Shown here piece by piece: positions 1 to 23,296 of a DNA stretch of 23,296 nucleotides. Location of the stretch: positions 1-23,296 of the IMG/VR virus record IMGVR_UViG_3300046694_000385. One strand, 5' to 3'. How positions within the stretch are numbered: the stretch's first letter is position 1; the number at the start of each line of letters is the position of its first letter. This DNA comes from a virus. The notes under the pieces were generated by a model. That model saw only the letters and a list, made by a program, of their open reading frames with translations, ran no database searches and was not told the origin of the DNA. Made by a program: the position numbers and the translations under genes.

Positions 1-165
1 GACTCGGCCAGCGTGAGCGCCTCCGGCTCGGCCAGCGTGCGCGCCTTCGACTCGGCCAGCGTGAGCGCCTTCGACTCGGCCAGCGTGAGCGCCTCCGGCT
101 CGGCCAGCGTGAGCGCCTCCGGCTCGGCCAGCGTGCGCGCCTTCGGCTCGGCCAGCGTGCGCGCC
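1..165 (+). repeat. 24-bp tandem repeat, about seven copies
   Basis: Units begin at 1, 25, 49, 73, 97, 121 and 145, each built on gactcggccagcgtgagcgc with changes at a few positions (ga/gg at the start, gag/gcg in the middle, tcc/ttc at the end). There are no spacers, so this is a coding tandem repeat and not a CRISPR. It probably continues upstream of the window. Confidence 0.9.
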
Positions 166-1661: not shown

Positions 1662-2522
1662 GTGAAGATCACCCGCAGGAACAGCGGCAAAGGCCACTCG
1701 TACATCGACGTCGAAACCGGCCAGCGCATCGACGGCGTCACCACCATCAACGGCAACGGCATGCCGAAACCCGCACTGCTCAACTGGGCCGGCAACGCCA
1801 CCGCCGAATACGCCGTCGACAACTGGGACGAGCTGGCCAAGCTGTCCTACTCGGAGCGCCTCACGAAGATCAAGGGCGGCCGGTACGAGAAGCGCGACGC
1901 CGCCGCGAACAAGGGCACCCAGGTCCACAAGATGGCCGAACGCCTGACCGCCGGCGAGAAGGTCACCGTGCCCGACGCCCTGGTCGGCTACGTCAACGCC
2001 TGCGTGCGCTTCCTCGACGAGTTCGACCTGCAAGCCGAGCACGTCGAGGCCGTCGTCTACTCCGAGACCAACCGGCACGTCGGCACCACCGACCTGATCG
2101 GCCGGGTGCTGCTGCCGGACATGCCGGAGTACGACCACATCCCCCGCGACGACGACGGCTACTCGCTGGGGCTGTTCGACTGGAAGACCAGCAAGTCGGG
2201 CATCTTCGGTGACGTCGCCCTGCAGCTGGTGGCGTACCGGTTCTCGGAGCGGCTGATCCTGCCCGACGGTACGGACGTCGAGATGCCGCAGGTTGACTTC
2301 TGTGCGGGTATCCACCTGACGGCGACCGGCTACAGCTTCGTCCCGCTGACCTGCGACGAGGATGTGTACCGGGACTTCCTGTACGTGAAGGAGACGGCCC
2401 GGATCGTCGACGGGCTGCGGGATCTGGTCGGTGAGCCGATCGTCCCGCCGACCGCCTCGGCGTACGTGCTCGCCAAGGCCGGCGAGGATGCGCCGGCCGA
2501 GCCCGAGACGGCGTCGTTCTGA
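1662..2522 (+). CDS. PD-(D/E)XK exonuclease, RecB/Cas4-like
   Basis: A 286-residue nuclease, probably the 5'-3' exonuclease of a phage recombination pair that resects double-stranded ends. The fold signature is clear and in order: GTQVHKMAE with His89, GTTDLIGRV with Asp144, LFDWKTSK with Asp173-x-Lys175 as the (D/E)xK motif, and ALQLVAYR with Gln188 and Tyr192 as the QxxxY motif. An acidic residue near 129 precedes the Asp144 strand. No Cys cluster of the Cas4 iron-sulfur type is visible (only Cys114, Cys214 and Cys231), so it is closer to phage RecB-type exonucleases. The start is the GTG behind AGGAGG. The stop overlaps the ATG of the ERF gene by one base, which supports a functional pair. 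Confidence 0.88.
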   Translation: MKITRRNSGKGHSYIDVETGQRIDGVTTINGNGMPKPALLNWAGNATAEYAVDNWDELAKLSYSERLTKIKGGRYEKRDAAANKGTQVHKMAERLTAGEKVTVPDALVGYVNACVRFLDEFDLQAEHVEAVVYSETNRHVGTTDLIGRVLLPDMPEYDHIPRDDDGYSLGLFDWKTSKSGIFGDVALQLVAYRFSERLILPDGTDVEMPQVDFCAGIHLTATGYSFVPLTCDEDVYRDFLYVKETARIVDGLRDLVGEPIVPPTASAYVLAKAGEDAPAEPETASF

Positions 2523-3295
2523 TGGCCGACCCGAAGAGCCTCGACGAGGCGTTGCTGATGCTGCAGGCCGATCCGCCGGTGCTCACCAAGAGCAAAGACG
2601 GGCAGGTGGGCAACCAGCGGACCAAGTACGCCGACCTGGTGCAGGTGAACAAGCAGGTCCTGGCCCGGCTCAACGAGCTGGGTCTGGTCTGGAAGTGCGC
2701 GCCCGACCTGATCCCGGACGGGGCGCATCCGCTGCGGTTCGTGCTGCGCTACGAGCTCATGCATGTGGCGACCGGTGAGTTCGAGCGCGGTGCGTTTCCG
2801 CTGCTCGGGTCGACGCCGCAGCAGCATGGGTCGGCGATGACCTACGCCCGCCGGTACGCGCTGCTGGCCGTGACCGGTATCGCGGCCGAGGATGAGGACG
2901 ACGACGGGGATATGGCGTCCGGCCGACAGACTGCCCAGCGGGCTACCCAGCAGCGCGCTGCCGCCCGTGCTGGTGGACGGGAGCAGGGTGCCGGCCAGAC
3001 CGCGCAGCGTGCCGCTCAGCGTCCGCGCGGTGGCCGCCCGGCGCTGCCCGGTGAGGATCCGGACGGTCCGGTTGGAGCCGACCAGCACCGGCATATGCGT
3101 GCGTTGTGGGCCGACCTCGGGTTCGCTGGTGACGAGAACCGGTACAACCGGCTCGCCATCACCGCGAAGATCCTCGGCCTGCCAGAACTTGACAGCAGCG
3201 CGAGCCTCACCCGGGCGCAGGCCGACACGGTGATCGCCGCGCTCGTCGAGCGCAAGGAGCAGACCGCGCCAGTGCCGGACGGCGGTGACCGGTGA
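2522..3295 (+). CDS. erf: ERF-family single-strand DNA annealing protein
   Basis: A 257-residue protein of the ERF recombinase superfamily, which anneals complementary single strands made by the partner exonuclease. The ERF core spans about residues 3-130: YADLVQVNKQV near 36, a GL beta turn near 54, HVATGEFERGAFPL, and then the diagnostic Q-Q-H-G-S-A-M-T-Y-A-R-R-Y-A-L block at 100-114, followed by an acidic EDEDDDGD. Residues 131-185 are an Ala/Gln/Arg-rich flexible linker. Residues 187-250 form a small helical domain (DQHRHMRALWADLGF to LTRAQADTVIAAL) of the sort seen at the C-terminus of other phage recombination proteins. It is translated directly after the exonuclease with a TGATG junction. 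Confidence 0.88.
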   Translation: MADPKSLDEALLMLQADPPVLTKSKDGQVGNQRTKYADLVQVNKQVLARLNELGLVWKCAPDLIPDGAHPLRFVLRYELMHVATGEFERGAFPLLGSTPQQHGSAMTYARRYALLAVTGIAAEDEDDDGDMASGRQTAQRATQQRAAARAGGREQGAGQTAQRAAQRPRGGRPALPGEDPDGPVGADQHRHMRALWADLGFAGDENRYNRLAITAKILGLPELDSSASLTRAQADTVIAALVERKEQTAPVPDGGDR

Positions 3296-6862: not shown

Positions 6863-7215
6863 CCGACTGGCTGATCCTCGCGGTCTACGTCGCCGTCTGG
6901 CTGGTCTACGGCTGGCGGCTGACCATCCACATCCTCGACGTGCAGGTGCGGCGGTCGAAGTCCCTCTACGGCGACGCGGAGAAGGCCGCCAAGGAGTGGC
7001 TCGGCATCAGCATGTACGGCGGCTTCGCCCTGGCCCTGTTCTGGCCGGTCGTGGCGCCGGTCCGGTTCATCTACCGGCTGGCCAGCACGGGCGGACTGTT
7101 CCGGACCCCAGCCGAGCGCGAAGAGACGGAGCGGCGCGAGCTGGAGCAGCTTCGAAAGCTCGCGAAAGAGCACGGTCTACCAATGCCCGAAACGGACAGG
7201 AAAGGAGCTGCCTGA
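6859..7215 (+). CDS. Membrane protein with two predicted helices
   Basis: A 118-residue protein from GTG 6859 behind a strong AAGGAGG at 6846-6852. Residues 2-24 (TDWLILAVYVAVWLVYGWRL) and about 50-72 (GISMYGGFALALFWPVVAPV) are hydrophobic, followed by a charged cytoplasmic-type helix (EREETERRELEQLRKLAKEH). Small two-pass proteins like this are common upstream of replication genes in actinophages. Superinfection exclusion or holin-like roles cannot be told apart here. It ends the first overlapping run. Confidence 0.7.
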   Translation: MTDWLILAVYVAVWLVYGWRLTIHILDVQVRRSKSLYGDAEKAAKEWLGISMYGGFALALFWPVVAPVRFIYRLASTGGLFRTPAEREETERRELEQLRKLAKEHGLPMPETDRKGAA

Positions 7216-7534
7216 CATTGGCCCGTGCCATTCCGTGAGCATTTGCGGCCGGGCCGCATTCGGATTGAAACGTCACATGATCAGCGGGTGGAAATAGAGT
7301 GATCGATAAGACACGGCAACCGGCGCGCCGGGAGATCCACATGCGGCGTGAGCTGGGACAATGGGATGTCATAAATAGGGCGACCGGACGAGCGTTTGCG
7401 CCGCCCATCCGGTCTGGAGCCCTTATCCCATGCTTCCCAGCAGGAAGGGGCTATGCCCTCATGCTGCCATGCCGCGCTAGAAACGTGCGCATCTGCAACA
7501 CCGTGTCTTGCGCCACCGAACAGGCGTACGCCTG
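7216..7534 (+). other. Non-coding gap before the replication gene
   Basis: 319 bases with lower GC and scrambled third positions. A frame at 7299-7535 is open and would end TGATG with the next gene, but its codon use is unlike any neighbour. An inverted repeat, gaccgga at 7382-7388 and tccggtc at 7408-7414, flanks a 19-base loop. A TAGAGT (7295-7300) fits an actinobacterial -10 box but has no matching -35. The gap ends with a 14-bp palindrome next to ATG 7535. This is the likely control region for the replication block. Confidence 0.5.
7521..7534. promoter_or_regulatory. 14-bp perfect palindrome abutting a start codon
   Basis: CAGGCGTACGCCTG is perfectly self-complementary and touches ATG 7535. 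Its central CGTACG is shared with the iterons inside the following gene, which would fit self-regulation by the initiator. CGTACG is also common in coding sequence here, so the match alone is weak. Confidence 0.35.
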
Positions 7535-8293
7535 ATGGGCGCCTCGAATGCGCTCGCCGCGTTCCGCCGCTGGGCCGGGAAGGTCCCCGGCGCCTCGATG
7601 ATGCTGCTGACCTACATGTCCCTGGTCTCCAAGGACAAGGACGACTGGCCGTGGTACGGCCAAGGACAGGAAGCGCTCGCCGAGTTCGCCCTTGGTCGCG
7701 AGAACCCGGACCGCGCCGACCTCCGCGCGGTCTCGCGCGCGATGCAGCCGCTGCTCGACGCCGGAGCGGTGACCGTGGACCGCGGGTCGGCCGCCCGAGC
7801 GGACGGGAATACGACCGCTCGCTACCGCCTGAACATCTCCGACCGGGCCGACTCCGAGCGCCAGAAGTGGGAGGAGACGCACGACGGAAAGCGTCGCACG
7901 TCGAAGCCCGCCAAAGATCCACAACGTACGACGGTTTCTGGCAACGACGTACGACGGAAAGTGACGCAACGTACGACGGTTTCTGACGCGACGTACGACG
8001 GAAACCGTCGCACTAAGGAGGAAGAGGATCAAGAGGAGCGAGAAAACCAAGGAATAAGTGTTGATCTTCAGACGACCTCTCGCCCTTTGCGCGCGAAGCC
8101 GCCCGACGCAAAGCCTGCCCCCGTCATCGCACTCTTCCCCGGCACCGCCAACGCGCCCAACGAGCAGCCCTACCGGCCGCCGCCACGACGGACCACCCGG
8201 GCCCAGGACGCCATCGCCGAAGCCATGGCCCGCGTCGCCGCCCGCAAAGCCGAACACCAAGCCCAGCTCGCCGAGTCCAAGGAGATCTCCTGA
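7535..8293 (+). CDS. Winged-helix replication initiator-like protein
   Basis: A 252-residue protein. Residues 1-101 form a winged-helix domain of the phage replication-initiator type: ALAAFRRWAGKVPGASMMLL, a helix with GQGQEALAEFALG, a recognition-like helix DLRAVSRAMQPLLDAGAV and a wing ending TARYRLNI. Residues 110-185 are a charged, low-complexity linker. DNA repeats in the linker look like iterons, much as lambda O carries its origin inside its own gene. Residues 186-252 are Pro-rich and then helical (RAQDAIAEAMARVAARKAEH), possibly a partner contact. ATG 7535 was chosen over the upstream TTG. Assignment as the initiator is inference from domain plus repeats. Confidence 0.7.
   Translation: MGASNALAAFRRWAGKVPGASMMLLTYMSLVSKDKDDWPWYGQGQEALAEFALGRENPDRADLRAVSRAMQPLLDAGAVTVDRGSAARADGNTTARYRLNISDRADSERQKWEETHDGKRRTSKPAKDPQRTTVSGNDVRRKVTQRTTVSDATYDGNRRTKEEEDQEERENQGISVDLQTTSRPLRAKPPDAKPAPVIALFPGTANAPNEQPYRPPPRRTTRAQDAIAEAMARVAARKAEHQAQLAESKEIS
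7878..8070 (+). other. Putative replication origin (iterons plus purine/A-rich tract)
   Basis: Four exact copies of cgtacgacgg begin at 7925, 7948, 7970 and 7992, giving 22-23 bp spacing (two helical turns). A one-mismatch copy is at 7878. The 19-mer caacgtacgacggtttctg at 7922 recurs at 7967. The last copy forms a perfect hairpin, cgacgg-aaa-ccgtcg (7996-8010). The array is followed by a purine-rich, AT-rich tract (about 8014-8060) unusual for this GC-rich DNA, which fits a melting region. All of it lies inside the initiator gene. Confidence 0.6.
7925..8001 (+). repeat. Iteron array, four copies of cgtacgacgg
   Basis: Copies are at 7925-7934, 7948-7957, 7970-7979 and 7992-8001. The bases after each copy alternate ttt/aaa/ttt/aaa, so the array is also two copies of a 44-45-bp composite unit. 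The spacing is not a multiple of three throughout, so the encoded protein does not show a matching amino-acid repeat. This argues that the DNA, not the protein, is under selection. Confidence 0.75.
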
Positions 8294-8661
8294 TGGCCGA
8301 CCTGCCGCCGACGCAGTACCTGATCATGGAAGTCCTCGCGGCCCGCCACCGCCTCGGCGAGCACCTGTGGTCGTTCCCCTCCGAACTCCGCCGCCCGCTC
8401 GATGTGCTGGTGCGCTCAGGTCTCATCGACGTGCTCAGCAGCCCCGCCCCCGGCACGCTGCGGGCCCGGCTCACCAGGGCCGGTCGCGAGCATGCGCTGA
8501 AGCCCGGTTACGTGCCGCCGACCGTCGAGGTGTACGACACCGCGTTCGACCAGATCGACGGGCACCTCGACCAGTACCGAGGCGCGAAGGTTCTGCGCGA
8601 CGGCGTGCGGGCTGCCGTCGACGGCGCGCGCTCCCGCCTCGCCGAAACGGAGGTCTCCTGA
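8293..8661 (+). CDS. Small winged-helix-like protein
   Basis: A 122-residue protein from ATG 8293 with a TGATG overlap; the AAGGAG lies within the palindrome ggagatctcc (8281-8290). Residues 5-65 have the layout of a winged helix: QYLIMEVLAARHRLGEHLW, a helix PLDVLVRSGLIDVL and a wing RARLTRAGREHAL. The C-terminal half (DQIDGHLDQYRGAKVLRDGV) is helical. It may assist the initiator upstream, but that is context only. Confidence 0.65.
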   Translation: MADLPPTQYLIMEVLAARHRLGEHLWSFPSELRRPLDVLVRSGLIDVLSSPAPGTLRARLTRAGREHALKPGYVPPTVEVYDTAFDQIDGHLDQYRGAKVLRDGVRAAVDGARSRLAETEVS

Positions 8662-8663
8662 CC

Positions 8664-8948
8664 ATGGCCCGCCACGTCGAAACCCTCACCGCCCAAGCCA
8701 CCCCACCCGTCGCCGCCCTACCCGACCGGGCCTGCGCCGACACCGACCCGAAGGTCTTCTACCCCGACCACCACGCCCAAGGCCGCCAAGCCCGCGACAT
8801 CTGCGGACGCTGCCCCCACCGCCAGCCCTGCCTCGACTGGGCCCTCGAAACCCGGCAGGCGTTCGGAATCTGGGCCGGAACCAGCCCCGACGAACGCGCC
8901 GCCATGATCGACGGCGCACGACCCACCGGCACCGGATGGCCGGCATGA
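8664..8948 (+). CDS. WhiB-like iron-sulfur transcription regulator
   Basis: A 94-residue WhiB-family protein. Four cluster-binding cysteines are in place: C24 (ACADTDPKVFYP), C47, C50 (ICGRC) and C56. They are followed by the LDWALE helix and GIWAGTS (68-74), the G-(I/V)-W-x-G turn of the family. Known relatives bind a 4Fe-4S cluster and the housekeeping sigma factor; mycophage-borne ones can shift host gene control. ATG 8664 is preceded by GGAGG at 8649-8653. It lacks a long basic C-terminal tail, so its own DNA contact may be weak. It overlaps the XRE-type gene by ATGA. Confidence 0.9.
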   Translation: MARHVETLTAQATPPVAALPDRACADTDPKVFYPDHHAQGRQARDICGRCPHRQPCLDWALETRQAFGIWAGTSPDERAAMIDGARPTGTGWPA

Positions 8949-22038: not shown

Positions 22039-23296
22039 ATGTTCGACCGGCCGGACGCTGACCTCTGGTGGCCGGGCGACGGCCCGTACCCGGCCAGCCG
22101 GTTCCTGCCGGACCCGAGCTCCACCAGCCGGCCCACCTTCCTCAGCTCCACGATCGTCGACCAGTTCACCGACGGCACGGTGGACACGGCTCTGTGGACG
22201 AACAACTACGGCACAGTGTCGGAGACCGGCGGCCGGGGCCGGATCACCTGCGACACCGGCTACAGCGGCTTCTCCACCGCCATGCTCTACACCTGGGACG
22301 ACGTCTACGCCGGACTGTTCCCGCCCGCGCTCGCCAGCGCGACCAGCGAGTGCTACCTCGAGATGCTGCTCTACTCGCCGGGTCAGGCGCTGGGCACCGA
22401 CGTGGGTTTCTACATCGACCAAACCGGTGGCGTCTTCTACTGCGTGAGCCGGGTCGGCTACTTCGACGGCACCGCCTCACCGATCACCTACAGCGGCACG
22501 ACGCACGCGTGGATGCGGATCCTACGCAGCGGAACCGACATCCTGTTCCAGACCGCACCCGACGGCAGTACCTGGACGACCAGGCGCACGCTGGCCGCGC
22601 CGTCCTGGCTGCTCGCCGCCACCGACCTGCAGCTGTTCTTCGAGTCGCACCGCAGCGACGGAACGAACAACTTCGCCGAGATCGACAACGTCAACTCGGC
22701 CGGGCTCACCACGCACACCGCCGACGCGGCCCTGGCCGTCACGGCGACGCTGAGCGCGGACACCTCGGCGGCGCGCCCGGCCGACGCCGCACTGGTAGCG
22801 ACCGCGACCCTGACGGCCGACGCGACCCGCACGGCGATCGTCGACGGCGCCCTGGCGGTCACCGCCTCGCTGACAGCCGCGGCCACCCGCACCGCGATCG
22901 TGGACGCCGCGCTGACAGTCACGGCGACGCTCACCGCGGCGGCGGTCACCGCCCGGCCGGCTGATGCGGCGCTCGCGGTCACGGCAACGCTCTCGGCGGC
23001 GGCGACCCGTACGGCACTGGTCGCGGCGTCGGTCGCGGTGACCGCGACGATCGCCGCCGCAGCGACGCGGACCGCGCTCGTATCCGCCGCGCTGCCGGTC
23101 ACGGCGACCCTGTCGGCGACCGCGATCGTCGGCACCGCCCCGATCCTCGCCGACGCGGCACTCGCGGTGCCCGCCACGCTGAGCGCCGCGATCGGCCGCA
23201 CGGCGACCGGCGCCGCGACGCTGGCGGTCACCGTCACGACGACAGCGGCGGCATCCCGGACGGCACCGGCCACGGCCTCGCTCACCGCGACCGTCA
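22039..23296 (+). CDS. Large repeat-bearing virion/adhesin-like protein (3' partial)
   Basis: The frame from ATG 22039 stays open to the end of the window (419 codons seen). Residues 38-218 look like a concanavalin/laminin-G-type jelly roll (VDQFTDGTVDTALWTNNYG, GFYIDQTGGVFYCVSRVGY, AWMRILRSGTDILFQTAPDG, NFAEIDNVN), which often bind sugars. From residue 228 (about base 22720) there are at least nine imperfect repeats of 19-21 residues built on D-A-A-L-A-V-T-A-T-L-S-A-A-A-T-R-T-A. The missing 3' end hides any tip domain. A tail fibre, tail or surface adhesin is the best guess. Confidence 0.75.
   Translation, partial: MFDRPDADLWWPGDGPYPASRFLPDPSSTSRPTFLSSTIVDQFTDGTVDTALWTNNYGTVSETGGRGRITCDTGYSGFSTAMLYTWDDVYAGLFPPALASATSECYLEMLLYSPGQALGTDVGFYIDQTGGVFYCVSRVGYFDGTASPITYSGTTHAWMRILRSGTDILFQTAPDGSTWTTRRTLAAPSWLLAATDLQLFFESHRSDGTNNFAEIDNVNSAGLTTHTADAALAVTATLSADTSAARPADAALVATATLTADATRTAIVDGALAVTASLTAAATRTAIVDAALTVTATLTAAAVTARPADAALAVTATLSAAATRTALVAASVAVTATIAAAATRTALVSAALPVTATLSATAIVGTAPILADAALAVPATLSAAIGRTATGAATLAVTVTTTAAASRTAPATASLTATV
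22720..23296 (+). repeat. Coding tandem repeat of about 57-63 bp
   Basis: Each unit encodes A-A-L-x-V-T-A-T-L-(S/T)-A followed by a variable 7-10 residue part, often A-x-x-T-R-T-A. The repeat is imperfect at DNA level, and the amino-acid pattern is better kept than the codons, which argues for selection on protein shape. It runs off the window. Confidence 0.75.

Follow-up and report, generated by a model that had tools for sequence, protein, structure and literature searches.

Replication origins of actinobacterial phages have rarely been mapped, and a virus record from IMG/VR (IMGVR_UViG_3300046694_000385; the whole stretch of 23,296 nucleotides was analyzed and is hereafter called the window) raises the question of whether a group of short direct repeats inside one of its genes is such an origin. 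The preliminary description of this DNA had read the repeats as the iterons of an origin placed, as in phage lambda, within the gene of the initiator protein. Judging from sequence comparison, we consider it highly probable that positions 7878–8071 are the theta-type replication origin of the phage and that the gene containing them encodes an origin-binding initiator.

The Iterons Are Read in All Three Frames of a Predicted Winged-Helix Gene

The core CGTACGACGG has exactly four exact copies in the whole 23,296-base record, all on the + strand, within 77 bp, and at spacings of 23, 22, and 22 bp (Table 1). These are the four iterons of the preliminary description, and its degenerate fifth copy was confirmed as well, with a single mismatch. 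When 12-mers with at most one mismatch were counted, five copies were found in the 260 nt behind the winged helix, compared to a maximum of two in 60 dinucleotide shuffles and one in the preceding coding stretch. The terminal hairpin noted earlier was also recovered, with a DNA fold of −6.5 kcal/mol (z −3.4). Dyad centers in the window array numbered 2 vs. 2.2 expected, i.e., chance level, and clear symmetry is confined to the outer copies. An Rfam search gave no match.

Table 1. Positions of the putative origin, its gene, and adjoining features in the window
Feature	Position	Strand	Remarks
Leader exchanged with the initiator	7200..7534	+	Holds small ORF 7299-7535
Predicted initiator gene	7535..8293	+	252 aa: N-terminal winged helix, linker holding the putative origin, variable C-terminal part; homologues in about 28 genomes/records
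Predicted winged-helix DNA-binding domain	7535..7843	+	Alignment A5, AlphaFold2 element order, weak fold matches
Degenerate iteron CGCACGACGG	7878..7887	+	One mismatch to CGTACGACGG
Inverted degenerate copy of iteron core	7892..7903	-	12-mer, one mismatch
Weak DnaA-box-like site AGATCCACA	7915..7923	+	Two mismatches; alone not significant
Iteron 1, CGTACGACGG	7925..7934	+	Frame 0, read RTT
Iteron 2, CGTACGACGG	7948..7957	+	Frame 2, read VRR
Iteron 3, CGTACGACGG	7970..7979	+	Frame 0, read RTT
Iteron 4, CGTACGACGG	7992..8001	+	Frame 1, read TYDG
Terminal hairpin CGACGG-AAA-CCGTCG	7996..8010	.	Most symmetrical iteron; 7996-8001 pairs with 8005-8010
A/purine-rich tract, proposed unwinding element	8012..8071	+	AT-richest 60 nt of the window; comparable tract and AGGAACCAC-like motif in the family

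Repeats within a coding sequence can be a by-product of a repetitive peptide. The linker of this protein is indeed of low complexity, and the other strong repeat arrays of the window (1–160 and 22816–23200, with weaker ones at 17.9 and 21 kb) behave like protein repeats, their spacings being multiples of 3. In contrast, the iteron core is read in all three frames of a single gene (0, 2, 0, and 1) and is not in codon register, and in several relatives the repeats are not coding at all (see below). Frame usage, together with the members whose stop codon precedes the array, refutes a protein tandem repeat, to which we assign practically no probability. The two strong arrays elsewhere, which lie near the record ends with spacings of 24 and mostly 57–63, are probably protein repeats, and the assembly may have broken within them.

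The preliminary description had placed the iterons in the low-complexity linker of a winged-helix protein, and structure prediction supported the winged helix. An AlphaFold2 model of the product gave the element order H-H-H-H-E-E at a modest pLDDT of 61 and serves only as a guide, and fold comparison returned weak, general winged-helix matches that include the initiator domains 4pt7 (plasmid), 5kbj, RctB domain 1, and DnaD, as well as MarR/PerR types. The window protein matched nothing in Pfam, PHROGs, or NCBIfam, so genes for initiators of this kind likely stand as hypothetical; a sequence search of solved structures likewise returned nothing meaningful.

The Repeats Are Kept as DNA across a Divergent Gene Family

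We collected about 28 divergent homologues, mostly in Actinomycetes genomes, with proteins 25–52% identical to that of the window. The homologue in Kribbella catacumbae, with a winged helix 51% identical to the window's, was the only new one to emerge from scans with the degenerate pattern WPWYGQG/PWYGQGHE, which otherwise gave mostly chance matches; a pattern for MGAAN...A[VIM] starts yielded none. About 20 more came from profiles built stepwise on Actinomycetes genomes, each locus being inspected directly, and weak profile matches (L032–L037) were left out of the family. Relatives were sampled in part, with 1,923 genomes counted and some overlap between searches. An early, narrow profile had no match in 246 Streptomyces genomes, and tblastn with five different family queries found no convincing homologue in public phage and plasmid collections. 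PHROGs returned no match for the proteins of two relatives, nor did Pfam above its curated cut-off, and the literature searched, with incomplete coverage, contained no description of the family.

According to the check proposed in the preliminary description, the iterons should be conserved as DNA in relatives even where the protein varies, and this is what we found. To pass the strict count, the 260 nt behind the domain had to contain a 12-mer in at least three copies, with either strand and up to one mismatch allowed. By this measure, repeats lie directly behind the winged helix in 16 of the 21 first members and in 3 of the 7 later ones, which were found in further genomes with a new profile (A5). 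The others (5/21 and 4/7) fell below three copies, and several of the members failing the count show shorter repeats by eye (L169–L171), which were left uncounted. Shuffles of the family loci reached a maximum of two copies, except for three in one locus where five were observed, while control stretches of the same loci, coding or downstream, held one or two copies and once three.

The repeat sequence differs from member to member, with a spacing of mostly 22–25 bp. In most relatives the array lies inside the coding sequence, and most of these coding members read their repeat in two or three frames; in others it lies directly behind the gene. Two Kribbella-family genomes and one other element have a gene that ends ahead of the repeats. 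In K. catacumbae (L020/L031), a TAG stop precedes the array CACCGGACGG(AAAC/TTTG), which is hence non-coding: four copies of a related core, CGGACGG plus AAAC or TTTG/TTTC, follow the stop and are followed in turn by an A/G-rich tract. The arrays of L141 and L175 are likewise non-coding since a stop codon comes before them, and in L175, a Kribbella-family locus that passes the strict count, the whole array, the tract, and a DnaA box all lie after the stop. The same repeat in two or three frames in some members, and outside the coding sequence in K. catacumbae and others, bears out the earlier suggestion that it is DNA rather than protein that is kept. One kind of array that is part of the coding sequence in some relatives but not in others, with an iteron of its own for each initiator, amounts to a natural experiment.

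We also counted dyad centers in the array regions of the family, the ends of which were set partly by eye, and obtained 99 vs. 45.6 ± 5.4 in shuffles. Because of this excess, the repeats of the family appear to tend toward interrupted palindromes, a form that would fit a dimeric winged helix.

An A-Rich Tract and, across the Family, DnaA Boxes Accompany the Arrays

The purine/A-rich tract reported next to the iterons proved to hold the lowest-GC stretches of the window at three lengths, i.e., 30 nt (8041–8070, 33%), 45 nt (8028–8072, 40%), and 60 nt (8012–8071, 43%), compared to about 70% for the window. An unsupervised motif search of the 75 nt behind the family arrays, with array ends again set partly by eye, returned a AGGAACCAC-like A-rich element with a log-likelihood ratio of 81, as against 60 or less in shuffles. 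This element occurs in all three codon phases and also in the non-coding members, after their stops.

Near the arrays of the family, 11 DnaA boxes (TTRTCCACA with at most one mismatch) were counted, compared to 1.4 expected and a maximum of 5; five of the 11 have no mismatch. The window itself has no DnaA box at this threshold, and a DnaA-box reading was rejected for it since the sole candidate is a two-mismatch site (Table 1). DnaA-trios are expected to show a 3-nt periodicity. An A-to-A period of 3 reached z 5.8 in the tract of coding members, where it is confounded by codons, and was weak in non-coding members (z 2.0, with 2.6 at lag 4), so the idea of DnaA-trios was not established. GC skew had no clear turning point at the array and was uninformative as an origin signal in the window.

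Leader, Putative Initiator, and Array Are Exchanged as One Block

The only close relative of the window is the 44.6-kb record IMGVR_UViG_3300047446_000185 (L005), which is 97% identical across 7200–8298 and differs on both flanks. Leader, initiator, and array have therefore been swapped as one block between two otherwise unlike phages. Only one substitution separates the two records in 7535–8142, while 22 fall in 8143–8293, the last 151 nt of the gene. Since the two are identical across the iteron array, this pair cannot separate selection on DNA from selection on protein. The TGA of the small leader ORF (78 aa) overlaps the initiator ATG as TGATG, a junction also seen in the Kribbella and L126 relatives, which suggests translational coupling of the two genes.

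The window carries exonuclease and Erf genes (1662–3295) and, further on, HNH, terminase, portal, and major head genes (11.4–19.4 kb); an ORF at 8664–8948 has a cysteine pattern that looks WhiB-like. Neighbors of the gene in relatives include exonuclease VIII, RecT-like, and RuvC-like genes, tyrosine integrases, and a terminase or tape-measure gene, and the gene therefore travels in phages and integrative elements. On one small contig (L165), an excisionase-like ORF, the initiator, and a weak array with its tract are followed by a ParA-type gene, an arrangement that looks plasmid-like.

This context bears on two other functions that the repeats might have. They could be operators through which the winged-helix protein represses or regulates its own gene with no part in replication; repressors commonly have winged-helix domains, the fold matches include MarR/PerR types, and palindromic sites would suit a dimeric regulator. 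The arrays, however, are not at the promoter but past the start codon, within the 3′ half of the gene, and a search of 7100–8400 revealed no sigma-70-like promoter around the array. A-rich tracts and DnaA boxes follow the arrays in the family, and the gene belongs to recombination/replication modules or has an integrase gene, and once a parA-type gene, as its neighbor. We therefore regard operators as improbable.

Still less probable, to the point of being very unlikely, is a partition site (centromere), to which the protein would bind for the segregation of a plasmid-like prophage. Arrays that resemble iterons can serve as parS sites, and parS loci of mycobacteriophages hold direct repeats (PMC7157519); one relative, L165, has a parA-type gene beside its initiator gene. 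However, no parA was seen in those ORFs of the window that were searched, nor in most of the relatives inspected, and many relatives lie beside integrase genes, so that partition is not obviously needed. An adjoining AT-rich tract, moreover, is not a usual feature of partition sites.

No DnaB-type helicase (DnaB_C) was detected in the window, the 44.6-kb relative, or the Kribbella phage record, which suggests that a host helicase is used. A helicase loader (P or DnaC-like) was not seen among the ORFs searched in the window, which is a fragment.

Comparison with Known Origins and a Proposed Mechanism

In lambda, the origin lies in the middle of the O gene, with four to six iterons and a flanking AT-rich tract (PMC7466680). 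The layout of the window is alike in that the iterons lie within the predicted initiator gene beside an AT-rich tract, as they also do in Stx-phage origins, and in both groups the iteron number varies between relatives (PMC7466680). The lambda-O-like label of the preliminary description thus held for the layout but not for descent: no sequence relation to O was detected with Pfam, PHROGs, or NCBIfam, and as no family in these collections matches the window protein, we do not file it as an O homologue, nor did PHROGs or Pfam match it to any other initiator. Unlike lambda, the present family has Actinomycetes as hosts and sets an A/purine-rich tract in high-GC DNA; DnaA boxes are enriched, the gene stops before the iterons in some members, and no helicase loader like P was identified.

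Iteron plasmids with winged-helix Rep proteins (RepE, Pi, and TrfA; PDB 4pt7, 5kbj) resemble the window in their winged-helix initiator, phased iterons, and adjacent AT-rich region, and they share nearby DnaA boxes with part of the family. Whereas plasmid Reps have at least two winged helices (PMC10797057), a single one is predicted in the window protein, for which there is no sequence match; the present iterons, unlike those of the plasmids, lie inside or directly behind the coding sequence. RepA of extrachromosomal mycobacteriophages is likewise an actinobacterial phage initiator with an N-terminal HTH, and its authors suggested an origin in or just upstream of repA (PMC7157519). The region searched in those phages yielded no repeated motifs (PMC7157519), in contrast to the clear iterons of the present family.

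We propose that the winged helix would bind the iterons, phased at 22–23 bp or about two helical turns per step, as a co-oriented array, probably in the form of dimers at half-palindromic sites. Strain from the bound array on the adjacent A-rich tract would cause the tract to melt, whereupon host factors would load the host helicase. The helicase would be host DnaB, a choice made because no phage DnaB was found, and in relatives with DnaA boxes host DnaA probably takes part. Since a single cassette carries both initiator and origin, every initiator would keep its cognate iterons when phages recombine.

A broader possibility, which we offer tentatively and with considerable doubt, is that the family is an undescribed, widespread class of initiators of actinobacterial mobile elements. 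Their cognate iterons would be palindromic and fast-evolving and would lie within the initiator gene or just behind it, and the initiators would leave unwinding to host DnaA by way of a conserved AGGAACCAC/trinucleotide tract that resembles DnaA-trios. If so, initiator-plus-origin cassettes would be traded among phages and integrative elements, which would borrow the unwinding machinery of the host. The combination of a winged-helix gene, an array behind the wing, and an A-rich tract offers a simple search rule for origins of actinobacterial phages and integrative elements, and the pattern could yield small replicons for vectors.

Two further features were seen among the relatives. In L129/L132 (L158), two tandem initiator genes of the family lie back to back near an integrase gene. 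The C-termini of L138, L140, L142, and L143 have in common a short segment (like DEEYxxAR...RDAVIEAA) behind the linker that bears the putative origin, and this segment is possibly a partner-binding domain.
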